This document shows, piece after piece, positions 13,934 through 20,795 of a DNA stretch of 57,755 nt. A model generated the notes under the pieces. The model saw only the letters and a program-made list of their open reading frames with translations. It was not told the origin of the DNA and searched no databases. Position 1 is the first letter of the stretch. Every line of letters begins with the position of its first letter. Source of the DNA: Candidatus Aminicenantota bacterium (GTDB lineage Bacteria > Acidobacteriota > Aminicenantia > Aminicenantales > Saccharicenantaceae); assembly GCA_013178315.1 (NCBI GenBank), contig JABLWX010000005.1, positions 1 through 57,755 of the forward strand, in the 5' to 3' direction. A program made the translations under genes and the position numbers.

Positions 13934-14386
13934 CTAGCCTTCTATCTTGTATTCATCAGCCTCGGATTCTTCGCCCGGCCCTTTCTTTTTTATTTCCGTA
14001 AACTTGTGTTCCAGGGCGATTATCTTGACCAGGTTGCCGGGATAGTTCTGTCCTTTCTGGTTGCCGTAGGCCTGGAACTGGACTCCGACCTTGAAAGGGT
14101 AAGAAGGATTATCCTGCCCGGCCGACCAGCGGACCTCGCCCAGCTGGGTTAAGGGAACCATTTCCCCCGGAATGGAAATCTGAATGGTCAGAGCCGTGCC
14201 TGGCTTCAGGTTTTGGCGGCAGCTGAAGCTGACCCCGCCGCGGCTTATGTTCTGGAGAGGGCAGAATTCTTCGTCGAATTCTTTCCGGGAGCCGAGCCAC
14301 CTTTCCTTGCGGTAGGAAACGGTAGCTCCTGGTATCATAAACCTCTCGCAGAGGCGCTTTTCTTCCGGGTAAATTTCCTGGCTCAT
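13934..14386 (-). CDS. PilZ domain protein
   Basis: 150 residues from ATG 14386; an alternative ATG at 14419 would give 161. The longer frame from TTG 14458 is excluded because that TTG is the -35 box of the promoter. The PilZ c-di-GMP motifs are intact: RLCER at 11-15 (RxxxR) and NISRGG at 46-51 (NxSxxG), followed by strand-rich sequence ending near PFKVGVQF. PilZ domains bind c-di-GMP and switch partner proteins; no output domain is attached. It is convergent with glyS and separated from the exported protein upstream by its own promoter. Confidence 0.85.
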   Translation of the reverse strand: MSQEIYPEEKRLCERFMIPGATVSYRKERWLGSRKEFDEEFCPLQNISRGGVSFSCRQNLKPGTALTIQISIPGEMVPLTQLGEVRWSAGQDNPSYPFKVGVQFQAYGNQKGQNYPGNLVKIIALEHKFTEIKKKGPGEESEADEYKIEG

Positions 14387-14429
14387 TCTCTTATCCGATT
14401 TGTTATCCGCAGCTGACATGTTGCTTATA

Positions 14430-14458
14430 TTTATATATAAGATGGGCCGATTTGTCAA
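14430..14458 (-). promoter_or_regulatory. Consensus promoter of the PilZ gene
   Basis: Minus strand: perfect TTGACA at 14458-14453, 17-nt spacer, TATAAA at 14435-14430. The first ATG (14419) is only 10 nt from the -10 box, so either that start is read from a nearly leaderless mRNA or ATG 14386 is used with a leader of about 37 nt. Confidence 0.7.
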
Positions 14459-14489
14459 AAAATCATGGCCCGGGCTTTGCCGGAGGCGG

Positions 14490-15554
14490 TCAATAGGGCA
14501 GGGATTCAGCCTTGACCGGCCGGAGCTTGATAGAAACGTCGGTCCTTATTTCCTGATTTTCCAGGCTGGTGAAGGAAAAATTGATTTCCGGTCTTTTGAC
14601 GAAGCTGGCCGGCACTTTTTCCGGTGGCTTTTTCTTCCAGTCCTTGATGGCCCCGGCGATGGCCGAAATAGCATCCAGGATGGAAACCCCACGGAAATAT
14701 GGCTGGTCCTTATCCGGAGCCATGTAGGGCTTGGTCCCCGGTGGGTTGGGCGGGGGTATGTAGACCTTGACCGGTATCTGTTTTTGCAGGTACTTGGTGG
14801 CCTTGTAAATCAAGGTGTCGCCGATGTAAAAGGCCACTTCTCCCTCGACGTTCTTGATGGGCGGGGATTCCTGTCTTTGAACCAGGAGCTCCCGGTTTTT
14901 CATGTTCCTTTTTTCGATTCCGAGCTCCAGGACAATTCGCTTCCTGATGGTGATACTCCTGGTCTTAAGGTAAAGGTCAACGTTCAGAGAGTAGGACTGG
15001 TCAAAATAAAATGGCAGGGGAAGCTGGATCAGGTGGGCTCCCTTGGTCCACAGGCCGCCCTCCAGCGGGTTGCCTTCCACCTGTATCTTGTAATAGGCAT
15101 CTGCCGACAGGTCAAAGCCAAGACGCAGGACCCCGGGAATGGTCTGGTCTTCGGAAGAGGCGGGAAGCAGAAAATTCAGGTTGCTGACCAGGGGAAAGTC
15201 TTCCCGCCAGCGCCCCCAGTATTCCAGGGCCTGGTTAAAGACGCTGAAATCCAGGAAGGACAGCAGCGGCTGGGCCTCCCCGAATTCCTCGAAGTAGTCG
15301 ATCAGGGCCTTTTTTTCTTCGGCCGGGAGGTTATTCTTGAAGTACAGGAATGGCAGGAGAGCCAGGGCATCCTGTTTTTCGGCCTGGTCCAGTCCGGACA
15401 GGGTGGTCTCCAGCAGGTTCAGGGCGGGCTCGTATTCCCTGTTTTTCAGCAGTTCGTTTATCTCCGATTTCCAGTCAGCCCGGGCCGAGACGGACAGGCA
15501 GAAAAAGCCCAGTATTAACAGGAGAACCAGCCGGGTCTTTTTAGGTTCAGTCAT
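14490..15554 (-). CDS. Exported protein of unknown function
   Basis: 354 residues. ATG 15554 is chosen because it starts a clear signal peptide (KKTRLVLLLILGFFCLSVSARA); upstream in-frame codons lie inside the TonB-like gene. The mature part begins with an alpha-helical segment (about 30-120, DWKSEINELLKNREYEPALN onward), followed by beta-rich sequence with GVLRLGFDLSADAYYKIQVEG and YSLNVDLYLKTRSITIRKR. No catalytic motif was recognised. It overlaps the TonB-like gene by 8 nt, so the two are probably made together and may act together in the envelope. Confidence 0.75.
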   Translation of the reverse strand: MTEPKKTRLVLLLILGFFCLSVSARADWKSEINELLKNREYEPALNLLETTLSGLDQAEKQDALALLPFLYFKNNLPAEEKKALIDYFEEFGEAQPLLSFLDFSVFNQALEYWGRWREDFPLVSNLNFLLPASSEDQTIPGVLRLGFDLSADAYYKIQVEGNPLEGGLWTKGAHLIQLPLPFYFDQSYSLNVDLYLKTRSITIRKRIVLELGIEKRNMKNRELLVQRQESPPIKNVEGEVAFYIGDTLIYKATKYLQKQIPVKVYIPPPNPPGTKPYMAPDKDQPYFRGVSILDAISAIAGAIKDWKKKPPEKVPASFVKRPEINFSFTSLENQEIRTDVSIKLRPVKAESLPY

Positions 15555-16542
15555 GGTAGGTGAACACCAGGTAGAATTCCAGGCTTTTTCCGGGAAAATC
15601 CTCGGGCAGAGGAGGGAAGGGAGCACAGAGCCGGACAGCGGTCAGGGCAGCCTGGTCCAGGATGTCGCTGGTGGTGGAAGTGGCAATTTCCAGCGATTGC
15701 AACTGTCCGTCCTTATCAACCAGCAGAATCAGGGCCACATTCTTGGTTTTCGGCATGACCGAGAGCTGGGGCAGGATCCACCTGGATTGAACCAGGTTGA
15801 CCACTTTTTCCGCCCAGGGTTTGATATTGTACCGGTAGCCGGCGACTGCCTGTGGAGTTACTGCTCCCGGGATTCCGGGACGGGCTCGCCCTGACTCGGT
15901 AAAGCGCAGGCCCCGGCCGGGCTTTTCGTAGGCCCGGGGGGCAGCATACTGCAGGACGTCACTCTTAAGAGAAGGGGCGGCTTCGCCGGTTTCACCAGTT
16001 TCAGGTTCTGGCCTGACCGTCAGCTTGAGGCTGAAACGGTATTTTCCAGAAACTGGCCTGATGCGCGAGAGATTAATTCTGACTCCGGAGGGAGTCTGGG
16101 ATTCTCCCCGGCCGGCAGCCAGGTAGGCTTCCAGGTCAAAGGGAATGGCCGGTTGCCCGGGCGCGGCAGCTTCGGAGGCGGAGCCGGCGGCTCCAGCCGC
16201 TTCGGTTCCCGGCCGGCCTCCGGGCTTCCCGGTTCCGGACTGGCCGGCACCCCCGGGCTGACCGCCAGCCTGTTCCTGGGTCACCGGCGGTTCTTTGATC
16301 ACTTCGGGCAGATAGGGGGGCGGGCCGGCTTCAGGGTAGGTGGCGATAACCACGTCAGTTTCTTTTATAAAAGGAAGTATCTTGACGATAATTTTTGCCT
16401 GTTTCAGGTAGAGAATTAGCAGGACGTGGAGCAGAACGGCTATGGTTAGGCTGATGACTTTAACCCAGGCTTCGCTCCGGTCCAGGCCGCGCCACCTGGA
16501 AGTCAGTTTCTGGAAGCTGGCCTTCAATCCAATATTTTTCAT
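15547..16542 (-). CDS. TonB-like energy transducer
   Basis: 331 residues. One N-terminal membrane helix (VKVISLTIAVLLHVLLILYL) is followed by a Gly/Pro/Ala-rich spacer (about 80-150) and a C-terminal TonB fold (KNVALILLVDKDGQLQSLEI, then FPPLPEDFPGKSLEFYLVF). TonB proteins transmit inner-membrane energy to outer-membrane receptors. No exbB, exbD or receptor gene is nearby. It overlaps the downstream exported-protein gene. Family assignment is good; the partner is unknown. Confidence 0.82.
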   Translation of the reverse strand: MKNIGLKASFQKLTSRWRGLDRSEAWVKVISLTIAVLLHVLLILYLKQAKIIVKILPFIKETDVVIATYPEAGPPPYLPEVIKEPPVTQEQAGGQPGGAGQSGTGKPGGRPGTEAAGAAGSASEAAAPGQPAIPFDLEAYLAAGRGESQTPSGVRINLSRIRPVSGKYRFSLKLTVRPEPETGETGEAAPSLKSDVLQYAAPRAYEKPGRGLRFTESGRARPGIPGAVTPQAVAGYRYNIKPWAEKVVNLVQSRWILPQLSVMPKTKNVALILLVDKDGQLQSLEIATSTTSDILDQAALTAVRLCAPFPPLPEDFPGKSLEFYLVFTYHD

Positions 16543-16619: not shown

Positions 16620-18797
16620 CTATTTGAAAACATAAAGCCTGAACAGTATGAAACCCAGGCAGAAGGAATTGACCAGCAACAGGAAGGTGAAAAGAAGCTC
16701 CAGTCCCAGCAGCGGAATGAAGACCGAGGTGGCCAGCAGGGCCCCGAGGAAGGAGCCGAATAGGTCCAGCGAATAGCCAAGACCGTATCTTATCTGGCTC
16801 TGAAGGTAGATGAAGTTGCTGACCACAAACAGGAAGCCGCCGAGAAAGCCCATCACCAGGAGCAGGCCGTAAAATGCCGGCTCGGGGGCGGCGGCCGGAG
16901 CCAGCCCGGCCAGGGCCAGCAAGATCACAAAGCCGGTCTGGACGGCTACCAGGTGCCGGGGACCCAGAGTGCTTGACAATCTTCGGGCCAGGCTGGAACC
17001 CAGGAATAACCCGGCCATGAAGATGGTAAACAAGAGCGATATCTTGCCGTAAACCAGGCCCAGCCGGCTCTGGAAGGCCAGGATCAGGGCCACTTCAGCC
17101 ACGATGGTGGTGAAACCCATGACCGTAATCGGCAGCAGGTAAATCGTTCCACCCTTTTTCCTGAAAGCAATCAGGAACATAATTAACAGCATAAACAGGA
17201 AAAGTGGCAGGTCAAAAAGCCAGAATCGGGTCTGGTGCTGCAGCTGGCCCAGCCCACGGCTGAGCGGCCCGTGGAATTGCTGGCTCCAGACCAGGGTCTG
17301 GTAGAAATAACTCACCGGGAGCCGGTCCGAATTCAGGCGGGGACTGTCCACGGTCTGCAGGCTGGAGCGAAGGTATTCCCTTTTCAGGGGATGAAGACGG
17401 CTTCGGAGGAATTCTGGCCTGAAAAAAACAGTCTTCAGCTGATAGCGGTCGAGCTTTTCGAGCAGGCTGTCCGTGGTGATATCCAGCGGACCGGCTGAGG
17501 CCAGCAATATGTTATTATCCCCAGGGATTATTTCCACCCGGGGAAAGACCGTCAGCAGGGAGTGGTAAATGGTGGCCAGGAGTATTGTCCTCTGCGGGGA
17601 AAGGTAGCTTTCAGAGGAGGGCAGAAGAAAGGAAAAAACGCCATCCTCGGCCAGCTTTTCCCGGACCTGTCTGAAAAACTCCACCGTGTAAAAACGGTTG
17701 ACCTGGGCGGTGGCCGGCTCAGGCAGGTTGCAGATGATGAGGTCGTAGCGATTCCGTGTTGCTCGCAGAAATTTCCTTCCGTCCTGGAGATTGATAGTAA
17801 CCCGCGGGTCTTCCAGTCCGGTCTGACGGTCGGGCAACACCTGGCGGGCCAGTCTGACCAGGGCCGGGTCCAGCTCCACGTAATCCACCCTGACCCGGGG
17901 ATACTGCAACGCCTGGGCCAGCGTGCCGTTGAGCCCGCCGCCGATGAGAAGCAACCTGGTCGCTTCCGGTCTCTGGAGGAAGGCAAAGTGGATGGCTTCC
18001 TCGGCCGAGGCCGGGTCGGGGAAGTTAAAGGCCAGGGAACTGTTGACGTAGAAAGAAACCAGTTCACCGGTCCTTACCACCTGGAGCCGGGCATAGGGCG
18101 AATCCCTGACCTCAACCAGGTGAAGCGGCTTCCAGTAAAATTTTTCGGTCGGCCGGTCTCCGAACCAGAGTCCGGCCGCCACCAGGACCGTAATGACCGT
18201 TGAGACCATTTGTTTTGAACCTGCCACCAGGTTGATGGCCAGCCCGGCCAGCAGGCTGATCAGGGCGGCCGCCTGCCAGCTGGAGAGGTGAGGGGTCAGG
18301 ACCAGGTAGACCAGCAGTCCACCGGCAGCTGCGCCCAGGGATTCCAGCTGGTAGACGGGTACGAGCCGGCCACGTTGCCAGAAGACGTTAAAGACGAACA
18401 GGGCCCCCAGCGGCAGGCTTAAGGCAAAAGAAATAAGCCAGGAGGTAAGCAGGAGAGGTCCGGGTCCGGTCATCTCCGCTGGCAGGGTGCCAAAAGCAAA
18501 CCTGGCCAGCCTGAGCAGGACCAGAAGGGCGGCCGTGATTATGATCATTCCCCGGTAGAAGACCACCGGGGAAATTTCAGCCTGGAATTTTTTCTCGGCC
18601 AGCAAACTTCCCAGCCCTCCACCCAGCAGCCAGAAAGCCAGGACCAGCCCGTAGACCAGCTCGTTGCCCTGGAAACGGACTTCGAATTCTCTGAGGATGA
18701 TCACCTGGAAAGAGGTGGCCAGAAAACCCAGGAGAAAGGGCCAGAAGGAATTCTTCAGCTCCAGACCCCGGCAATGACCTGACCGCAGTAACGGCAT
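16620..18797 (-). CDS. Membrane protein with spermidine-synthase-like domain
   Basis: 725 residues. About six membrane helices (20-210), a soluble aminopropyltransferase-like domain (about 225-440), then about seven more helices to the C-terminus. The SAM-binding site is visible as GGG at 286-288, ELD at 308-310 and DG at 339-340. The catalytic loop, in classical spermidine synthases DxxDP, reads NLPEP at 357-361, then ATAQVNRFYT, so both acidic positions differ (Asn and Glu). It is therefore uncertain that it makes spermidine. The frame overlaps the end of the radical SAM gene by 43 nt; no better start was found. Confidence 0.85.
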   Translation of the reverse strand: MPLLRSGHCRGLELKNSFWPFLLGFLATSFQVIILREFEVRFQGNELVYGLVLAFWLLGGGLGSLLAEKKFQAEISPVVFYRGMIIITAALLVLLRLARFAFGTLPAEMTGPGPLLLTSWLISFALSLPLGALFVFNVFWQRGRLVPVYQLESLGAAAGGLLVYLVLTPHLSSWQAAALISLLAGLAINLVAGSKQMVSTVITVLVAAGLWFGDRPTEKFYWKPLHLVEVRDSPYARLQVVRTGELVSFYVNSSLAFNFPDPASAEEAIHFAFLQRPEATRLLLIGGGLNGTLAQALQYPRVRVDYVELDPALVRLARQVLPDRQTGLEDPRVTINLQDGRKFLRATRNRYDLIICNLPEPATAQVNRFYTVEFFRQVREKLAEDGVFSFLLPSSESYLSPQRTILLATIYHSLLTVFPRVEIIPGDNNILLASAGPLDITTDSLLEKLDRYQLKTVFFRPEFLRSRLHPLKREYLRSSLQTVDSPRLNSDRLPVSYFYQTLVWSQQFHGPLSRGLGQLQHQTRFWLFDLPLFLFMLLIMFLIAFRKKGGTIYLLPITVMGFTTIVAEVALILAFQSRLGLVYGKISLLFTIFMAGLFLGSSLARRLSSTLGPRHLVAVQTGFVILLALAGLAPAAAPEPAFYGLLLVMGFLGGFLFVVSNFIYLQSQIRYGLGYSLDLFGSFLGALLATSVFIPLLGLELLFTFLLLVNSFCLGFILFRLYVFK

Positions 18798-19882
18798 TTG
18801 TTCCCGCTCATTTCCTTTTTTCTGATGACATAGCCGTATCGTTCGATTATTAATTTACCACATTTCGGGCAGTAGGTATTTTCCCCGGGATGACCGGGGA
18901 CATTACCAACGTAGACATGGTGCAGGCCTTCGGCCAGGGCCACTTCCCGGAGCTTTTCCAGTGTGGAGACCGGCGTTGGCGGCAGGTTCTTGACCAGGTA
19001 CATGGGGTGGAAGCGGGAAAAGTGAACCGGGTAATCCGGCCCTATTTCGCTTCTTAGGTAACGGCACATGTCACGTATTTCGGACGGGTTGTCGTTCAGG
19101 GTGGGAATGACCAGGTAAACTATTTCCAGCCAGGTTCCCGAGCGGGCGATCTGCTTGATGGTCTGGAGAACGGGCTGCAGTTCGCCCCGGACGTACTCGC
19201 TGTAAAAATTCTGGTTGAAGGCCTTGAGATCCACCTTGACCGCCTCGACCACCCGGAGCAGGTCGGCCAGGGGGTCCGGGTTGATATAGCCGGCAGTGAC
19301 CACCACGTTCCTGATACCCTTTTTCCTGGCCAGCAGGCTGCTGTCGTACATGTATTCAAAGAAGACCACCGGCTCGGTATAGGTATAGGCAATTACCGGG
19401 CAATCATAACGCTCGCAGGAAGCCACCAGGTCTTCTGGCGGCAGGCTGACGCTCTTGACCTGTTCCGGGCGCATCTGCGAAATTTCCCAGTTCTGGCAGA
19501 ACCTGCAGCTCAGGTTGCAGCCGGCCGTGGCCAGGGAAAAGGCCTCGGAGCCGGGCAGGAAATGGAAAAAGGGTTTCTTTTCTATGGGGTCGACGTTCAG
19601 GCTGGCCACCTGGCCGTAAACCAGGGTATAGTACCGGCCGTCCTGGTTTTCCCGGACCCCGCAGAAGCCTCTTTCTTTATCCCCGAGCTGGCAGAACCGC
19701 GGGCAGAGGTCGCACCTGATTTCCCGGTCAGGGAGCTTACGGTAGTAGCGGGCTTCCACCCGGGACAGACTGGCAGCGGACGGGGAAGAGCCGGCGAAGA
19801 AATTTCCGGCAGCAGAAATCCCGGGCAGCAGGCACAGGCTGCAACCGGAAAGAGAACATTTCAGAAAATCGCGGCGGTCCAT
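18755..19882 (-). CDS. amrS: AmrS-type radical SAM enzyme with Tat-like N-terminus
   Basis: 375 residues. The radical SAM cluster motif CxxxCxxC is C122, C126, C129 (GCNLSCRFCQNW). An N-terminal cysteine set (C57, C60, C64, C74) and a C-terminal zinc-ribbon (C338, C341, C363, C366) match the PflA-like/AmmeMemoRadiSam enzyme. The N-terminus reads MDRRDFLKCSLSGCSLCLL, a twin-arginine-like signal followed by a hydrophobic run, suggesting export. AMMECR1 and Memo partners, often nearby in other genomes, are not in this window. It lies 16 nt after the DUF362 gene and overlaps the membrane spermidine-synthase-like gene. Confidence 0.85.
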   Translation of the reverse strand: MDRRDFLKCSLSGCSLCLLPGISAAGNFFAGSSPSAASLSRVEARYYRKLPDREIRCDLCPRFCQLGDKERGFCGVRENQDGRYYTLVYGQVASLNVDPIEKKPFFHFLPGSEAFSLATAGCNLSCRFCQNWEISQMRPEQVKSVSLPPEDLVASCERYDCPVIAYTYTEPVVFFEYMYDSSLLARKKGIRNVVVTAGYINPDPLADLLRVVEAVKVDLKAFNQNFYSEYVRGELQPVLQTIKQIARSGTWLEIVYLVIPTLNDNPSEIRDMCRYLRSEIGPDYPVHFSRFHPMYLVKNLPPTPVSTLEKLREVALAEGLHHVYVGNVPGHPGENTYCPKCGKLIIERYGYVIRKKEMSGNKCRYCGQVIAGVWS

Positions 19883-19898
19883 ATTTCCTTTTATTTTA

Positions 19899-20795
19899 TT
19901 ATACCTCTTCTTCGATTATCTCGATATTTTCCAGCCGGGCCTGTCCGAGATTCAGTCTTTCCGCTGTCAGCAGGTAGCCCGGGGCCCGTCCTTCTTCTTT
20001 AAGCGAAGGCAGACCTTTTTGAGCCCTGAGCTCTTCTACGAGTTTCCAGCCGACGGTGTCGGCGGCCACCGGGTCCAGGCTGAAGATTAACTTCCGGGTG
20101 GGGGCCAGCCACTGCGGATGGTAGGAAGGACCGCGGTGGTACTGGACCCGCAGGGCGTCGAGTATGGTCAAACGATGTTTCTTGCGAATCGGGTCGGTTT
20201 CAAAAAGTTCGGCAATATATGGGTCGCAATTGGAATCGTGGTACTTATTGGGGTTATGTATGGCCCCGAAATAATTTTTAAGACCGGCGGTCACCCCGGC
20301 CAGGCCGTGGTCCTTGAGCAGGGCCAGGCTGATGCTGGCCTGGACCAGTTCCGCCTGGATGCGCGAAAAAAGGCTGCCCAGGTGGCGATGAGCGGTTGGT
20401 TCGGACTGGTAGCCGGCCCGGCGGTTGTCGGTGCCAAAGATTTTCAGGCTGCCCGGGGAGGTGGAGATTTTATAACCGGCCTCTTTGAGCTCCTCATCGG
20501 TTCTATCCCAGATGATGACATTTTCTTCCCGACCGACAGTCTGGCCGAGCCACAGGCCCAGGGCCAGGGCGGTTTCCGGACTGGTGCTCAGGGCCCGCCG
20601 GCCGATGGTGTTGACCTTGATCCCGATAGTTTCTTCAGGCCGGAACCACTGGCCCAGGGCCTCTTCCGCCCGGGCCGCACCGCTCAGGGACTGGATGCCT
20701 TTTTTCAGCATGGCCAGGATAATCCCCGGCTCGGGGCGGTTGATATCGGGAAAATTGCGTTTGCTGGTTACGATAACTACTCTGGCTTTATTCAT
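19899..20795 (-). CDS. DUF362 domain protein
   Basis: 298 residues. Family blocks are IGIKVNTIGRRALSTSPE, the ALLKDHGLAGVTAGLKN segment and NKYHDSNCDPYIAELFE, matching the DUF362 fold found alone or with ferredoxin domains. No iron-sulfur CxxC motif is present. Function is unknown. It is the first gene of the minus-strand run leading into the radical SAM gene, and has its own promoter close to the ATG. Confidence 0.85.
   Translation of the reverse strand: MNKARVVIVTSKRNFPDINRPEPGIILAMLKKGIQSLSGAARAEEALGQWFRPEETIGIKVNTIGRRALSTSPETALALGLWLGQTVGREENVIIWDRTDEELKEAGYKISTSPGSLKIFGTDNRRAGYQSEPTAHRHLGSLFSRIQAELVQASISLALLKDHGLAGVTAGLKNYFGAIHNPNKYHDSNCDPYIAELFETDPIRKKHRLTILDALRVQYHRGPSYHPQWLAPTRKLIFSLDPVAADTVGWKLVEELRAQKGLPSLKEEGRAPGYLLTAERLNLGQARLENIEIIEEEV

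Follow-up and report, generated by a model that had tools for sequence, protein, structure and literature searches.

A conserved gene set for a Tat-signal AmrS, a DUF362 protein and a 14-TM membrane protein in Aminicenantia, probably the local part of an extracytoplasmic AmmeMemoRadiSam system

Memo, AMMECR1 and AmrS, the members of the AmmeMemoRadiSam system (Memo/AmrB, AMMECR1/AmrA and AmrS; TIGR04335, TIGR04336 and TIGR04337), are widespread and include homologues of human disease-related proteins, and their function is, to our knowledge, unexplained; we know of no biochemical activity for any member. Burroughs et al. are said to have linked Memo contexts, in 2019, to nucleotide-base and isoprenoid modification. 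The AmmeMemoRadiSam literature that we found held nothing on the system's function, judging by titles and abstracts, and a literature search that did not extend to the main study of the gene neighbourhoods of Memo returned no report of an exported or periplasmic radical-SAM system. The locus described here raises the question of what an AmrS with a twin-arginine (Tat) type signal does beside a DUF362 protein and a membrane protein with an S-adenosyl-methionine (SAM)-binding domain. It lies in a stretch of 57,755 nt of contig JABLWX010000005.1 of a Candidatus Aminicenantota bacterium (hereafter the window), in which an initial annotation, made from the sequence alone, had taken the three genes as a hint of an envelope-linked modification pathway that would use SAM twice. 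The genes concerned are as follows:

19899..20795, (-) strand: DUF362 protein, 298 aa (ORF and PF04015 profile)
18755..19882, (-) strand: AmrS, AmmeMemoRadiSam radical SAM enzyme of the Tat-signal type, 375 aa (TIGR04337)
16620..18797, (-) strand: membrane protein, 725 aa, seven TM helices, a spermidine-synthase-like Rossmann domain and seven more TM helices
20908..21825, (+) strand: DUF6599 protein, divergent gene with a Sec-type signal, a possible further member (PF20244, 171 bits)

The arrangement reported in the initial annotation, three co-directional genes separated first by 16 nt and then overlapping by 43 nt, was reproduced, all three open reading frames being found on the (-) strand at these coordinates: the gap separates the DUF362 and AmrS genes, and AmrS overlaps the membrane protein gene by 43 nt if the ATG at 18797 is the start. 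The first ~13 residues of the membrane protein are poorly conserved in the orthologue alignment, and its exact start is therefore unsure. The family calls also stood, all scores lying above their cut-offs: 60.8 bits against 24 for DUF362 (Pfam profile search with PF04015), 379 bits against 220 for AmrS (TIGR04337), and 82.8 bits against 22.9 for the central domain of the membrane protein (Spermine_synth, PF01564). An identical DUF362 protein is encoded on a contig of Candidatus Saccharicenans subterraneus (Aminicenantes).

Linkage was counted over 80 named-genome loci with a DUF362 orthologue, only loci with enough sequence entering each denominator. AmrS is the next gene after DUF362 in 77/77 loci with room and the membrane protein is present in 71/71, which is the outcome of the gene-neighbourhood survey that had been suggested for the three; the divergent DUF6599 gene is linked in 61/65 relatives with room. 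Three of the 80 loci belong to Zixibacteria and the rest of the conserved order is in Aminicenantia. The three-gene arrangement is far beyond chance. An order unique to the source genome, the outcome against which the earlier idea had been set, is ruled out by the same order in Aminicenantia and Zixibacteria, that is, across two phyla. A DUF362 orthologue, with roughly half to full identity, was found in about 82/94 genomes of the order.

In Acidobacteriota outside Aminicenantia the genes are rearranged yet still together. A profile search with the membrane protein gave matches in 257/396 Acidobacteriota genomes, many of them covering only part of the profile, and 40 loci chosen for long matches to the 14-TM protein were then inspected for neighbours. 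AmrS is near 23 of these, a Memo-AMMECR1 fusion near 17 and DUF362 near 8, in parallel, convergent and spaced gene orders, and four-gene cassettes are present at three Acidobacteriota loci (L250, L255, L272); at 15/40 none of AmrS, Memo-AMMECR1 and DUF362 is nearby, some of these loci being at contig ends. In Zixibacteria, 74/132 genomes carry a DUF362 orthologue. Among the sampled loci Tat-AmrS adjoins DUF362 in 32/39 genomes (our own count), a signal-bearing Memo-AMMECR1 gene is divergent to DUF362 in 17/39, and four-gene cassettes were again found (e.g. L344, L346, L351-L354); 7 of the 39 genomes have DUF362 without the other members. At L317-L323 and L339-L343 Zixibacteria have a DUF362 gene of the same kind, but neither AmrS nor the membrane protein is encoded nearby. 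Secreted DUF6599 proteins also occur near set members outside Aminicenantia (L265:8535-9425, L347:4998-5969).

The AmrS protein carries three conserved elements:

19805..19882, (-) strand: Tat signal, MDRRDFLKCSLSGCSLCLLPGISAAG, with R3, R4 and F6 the same in all 78 orthologues
19496..19519, (-) strand: radical SAM cluster motif C122-x3-C126-x2-C129, invariant
18785..18871, (-) strand: C-terminal four-cysteine motif C338, C341, C363 and C366, 99-100% conserved

Tat signals were judged by a twin arginine followed by a hydrophobic stretch at the N-terminus. In the 78 orthologues the N-terminus diverges elsewhere while R3, R4 and F6 stay invariant. The AmrS sampled comprise 137 distinct RR-type sequences and 11 signal-less ones, the signal-less type being shorter than the Tat-signal type of the cluster. 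A TIGR04337 match was found in every genome of the order (over the cut-off in 92/94), most genomes having several. In a tree built from the radical SAM core, with the signal left out and with a small, mostly Aminicenantia sample of cytosolic sequences, the 55 signal-bearing sequences are split off from the others by a branch whose support is 97/87. The 14-TM neighbour is absent at the cytosolic AmrS loci (L185, L188-192, L196, L201, L202, L204). The source genome encodes TatC (234.5 bits). A chance Tat-like motif is ruled out by the invariance of the signal together with the contrast to the signal-less paralogues.

Nine AmrS of one subclade (support 100/100; L253, L257, L259, L261, L263, L267, L268, L274, L277) have a CxxCH motif that follows the Tat signal and precedes the radical SAM domain; the motif has a single origin and is absent from the AmrS of the window. 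CxxCH is the attachment motif for c-type haem, and since haem c is attached outside the cytoplasm, export is supported for this subclade, in which the motif could be a built-in electron carrier.

The set is, judging by its profile matches, of the AmmeMemoRadiSam kind, with an exported Memo-AMMECR1 protein as its putative missing partner, a point absent from the initial annotation. AmrS, Memo and AMMECR1 all score over their cut-offs, Memo and AMMECR1 being fused here; the features that set it apart from the known system are the Tat signal on AmrS, the signal peptide on Memo-AMMECR1, and the presence of the 14-TM protein and DUF362. We regard the putatively exported set as a variant of that known system. 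No Memo or AMMECR1 gene is next to AmrS in the cluster of the window, such genes being seen beside AmrS in other Acidobacteriota and in Zixibacteria; the fusion of the source genome, with a signal peptide, is on another contig (G000:C1, L187:7261-8718), and scores 266.8 against 26 for TIGR04336 and 182 against 99 for TIGR04335. In the fusions both domains were confirmed by Pfam and NCBIfam. Those adjoining Tat-AmrS mostly start with signal peptides, several having lipobox-like cysteines, and a hydrophobic N-terminus is present in 18/20 sampled relatives (the two exceptions include a stand-alone Memo). A signal-less Memo (L186) and a signal-less AmrS (L185) are encoded separately in the source genome, which thus seems to hold the system in both a cytosolic and an exported version. 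On a Segatella hominis plasmid (NZ_CP137560.1, L358) a Memo-AMMECR1 gene with an N-terminal signal-like stretch adjoins a signal-less AmrS, so the two proteins need not always be exported together. In Ideonella dechloratans neither Memo-AMMECR1 nor AmrS has a signal, and when plasmids were searched for cultured relatives, every AmrS in the four records examined lacked a signal.

The membrane protein is divided into three parts:

18135..18752, (-) strand: first block of seven TM helices, about residues 16-221 (hydropathy and AlphaFold)
17283..18122, (-) strand: spermidine-synthase-like domain, about residues 226-505, predicted to lie outside the membrane
16632..17228, (-) strand: second block of seven TM helices, about residues 524-722 (hydropathy and AlphaFold)

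An AlphaFold model made with 61 sequences (pLDDT 91.7, pTM 0.90) has seven helices, the domain and seven helices, a count that reads the last long helix of the model as two membrane spans. Helix borders were set by hand from hydropathy and Lys and Arg were counted in the loops. With the N-terminus placed inside, more Lys/Arg are on the inner side in 71/71 orthologues and in 56/56 more distant sequences (127/127), and the excess is also found in each half of the protein separately. With the N-terminus inside and seven helices before the domain, the SAM-type domain is therefore predicted to face outward. Position 289, the acidic residue of the GxG(D/E)G motif in spermidine synthases, is hydrophobic in 68/71 orthologues, and position 357, the catalytic Asp of SpeE, is Asn in 55/71 and Asp in only 8/71, the protein of the window having both replacements; in the wider set of 56, where the alignment is less sure, the catalytic Asp is present in 6/56 and Glu is at the motif column in 7. 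The initial annotation, in calling the protein spermidine-synthase-like, had not noted that these hallmarks are absent. The NCBIfam cut-offs for spermidine synthase equivalogs were all missed by a wide margin, and NF037959, for the fused MFS/spermidine synthase subfamily, scored 44.9 against a cut-off of 40. The best PDB structural matches of the domain are aminopropyltransferases, with TM-scores up to 0.79 by target length.

A comparable architecture is known in the fungal N-terminal histidine methyltransferase (NHMT), in which seven TM helices precede a spermidine-synthase-like domain and a hydrophobic residue replaces the D/E of GxG(D/E)G; the enzyme, located in the ER, acts on secreted proteins by methylating their N-terminal histidine, and its TM domain has been reported from fungi alone (PMC10349129). 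The present membrane protein shares with NHMT a block of seven TM helices ahead of a spermidine-synthase-like domain without this D/E, and differs from it in the second seven-TM block, the bacterial host and the linked radical SAM enzyme. The SAM-binding domain is probably methyltransferase-like; NHMT may serve as a precedent for how such a protein could work, relatedness not being implied.

In the DUF362 protein the invariant residues include K60, W96-D97-R98, K161-D162-H163, K173, H180-N-P-N-K-Y-H186, C190 and D246. It has no signal peptide in the source cluster, nor do its Aminicenantia orthologues, whereas DUF362 proteins with their own Tat signal are encoded at L250, L255 and L272, and one with a weaker signal at L275. 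Its structure model (pLDDT 94.5) gave significant matches that are nearly all LarA-like enzymes, at a TM-score of about 0.47; sequence search for relatives of solved structure found none. DUF362 and LarA are in the same Pfam clan, CL0471 (PMC11770544). The likeness to LarA and the nickel-pincer-nucleotide enzymes is one of remote fold only, with about 12% identity and a different length. LarC is present in the source genome.

We propose, at a probability of about 0.7, that the three genes are the local part of an extracytoplasmic AmmeMemoRadiSam system, with a probable role in modifying a substrate that is secreted or in the envelope. AmrS would acquire its fold and its Fe-S clusters in the cytoplasm before export by Tat, and DUF362, here without a signal of its own, might travel with it, perhaps as a Tat hitchhiker, which is a guess. 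The 14-TM protein would expose its SAM-binding domain at the outer side of the inner membrane and perhaps also let SAM across, and the signal-bearing Memo-AMMECR1 fusion encoded elsewhere in the source genome would complete the set, which together would most likely carry out a SAM-dependent modification. The envelope link suggested in the initial annotation gains from the Tat signal being universal in the AmrS clade, from the predicted outward position of the SAM-type domain and from the signal peptide of Memo-AMMECR1. The composition, conservation and predicted location of the system are well supported by such sequence features, together with the gene association and the intact radical SAM motif; we infer its substrate and chemistry, the supply of SAM and of electrons, the role of DUF362, and the joint action and radical chemistry outside the cytoplasm. 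A complete radical-SAM pathway outside the cytoplasm, in which a Tat-exported AmrS with exported Memo-AMMECR1 and DUF362 receives SAM via the 14-TM protein and modifies envelope lipids or exported proteins, is put forward tentatively, at clearly less than even odds; we are aware of no means by which SAM or low-potential electrons would reach the periplasm.

The set could instead work in the cytoplasm or on the cytoplasmic side of the membrane, with an AmrS that acts before export, is anchored by its signal or leaves the Tat motif unused, and with the SAM-type domain in the cytoplasm, where SAM is available. All radical SAM enzymes known to us do work in the cytoplasm, and the signal-less DUF362 of the Aminicenantia lineage and the S. 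hominis gene pair would fit such a scheme, but we consider it unlikely, given a twin arginine that never varies in an otherwise divergent N-terminus, an outward topology predicted in 127/127 sequences and from both halves, the CxxCH of the nine AmrS, and cassettes in which Memo-AMMECR1 bears a signal peptide and DUF362 a Tat signal. A polyamine pathway, with the membrane protein a true spermidine synthase that makes or exports polyamines and AmrS and DUF362 in support, has a much smaller chance still. The Spermine_synth and NF037959 scores and the aminopropyltransferase matches agree with it, and the domain shares the Rossmann fold with spermidine synthase and the membrane-bound polyamine aminopropyltransferases (PRK03612, NF037959); here, however, it lies between two TM blocks and misses every equivalog cut-off, and polyamine synthesis as the main role was rejected for lack of the hallmark acidic residues. 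That the genes are functionally unrelated and together only through slow rearrangement of the lineage is the least credible of these possibilities: the whole neighbourhood is quite conserved within Aminicenantia, but in other classes and in a second phylum these genes are still grouped although their order and orientation differ, whereas neighbours specific to one family, for example the TonB and PilZ genes, are lost.

If the extracytoplasmic reading is right, a defined compartment, recurring partners and a methyltransferase-like member would limit the candidate substrates to molecules that are secreted or in the envelope. Were AmrS to work outside the cytoplasm, radical SAM enzymes and SAM itself could no longer be taken as strictly cytoplasmic, and a source of electrons would then be suggested by the haem-motif subclade.

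Two further arrangements were observed. Downstream of the set in the window (13934-16542), genes for TonB-like, unknown secreted and PilZ proteins are conserved no further than the closest family. Some Aminicenantia (L194, L197, L199, L200, L203 and L251) have another kind of pair, in which the membrane protein gene is upstream of a Tat-signal AmrS gene without DUF362, and at L251 two such AmrS genes are in tandem.
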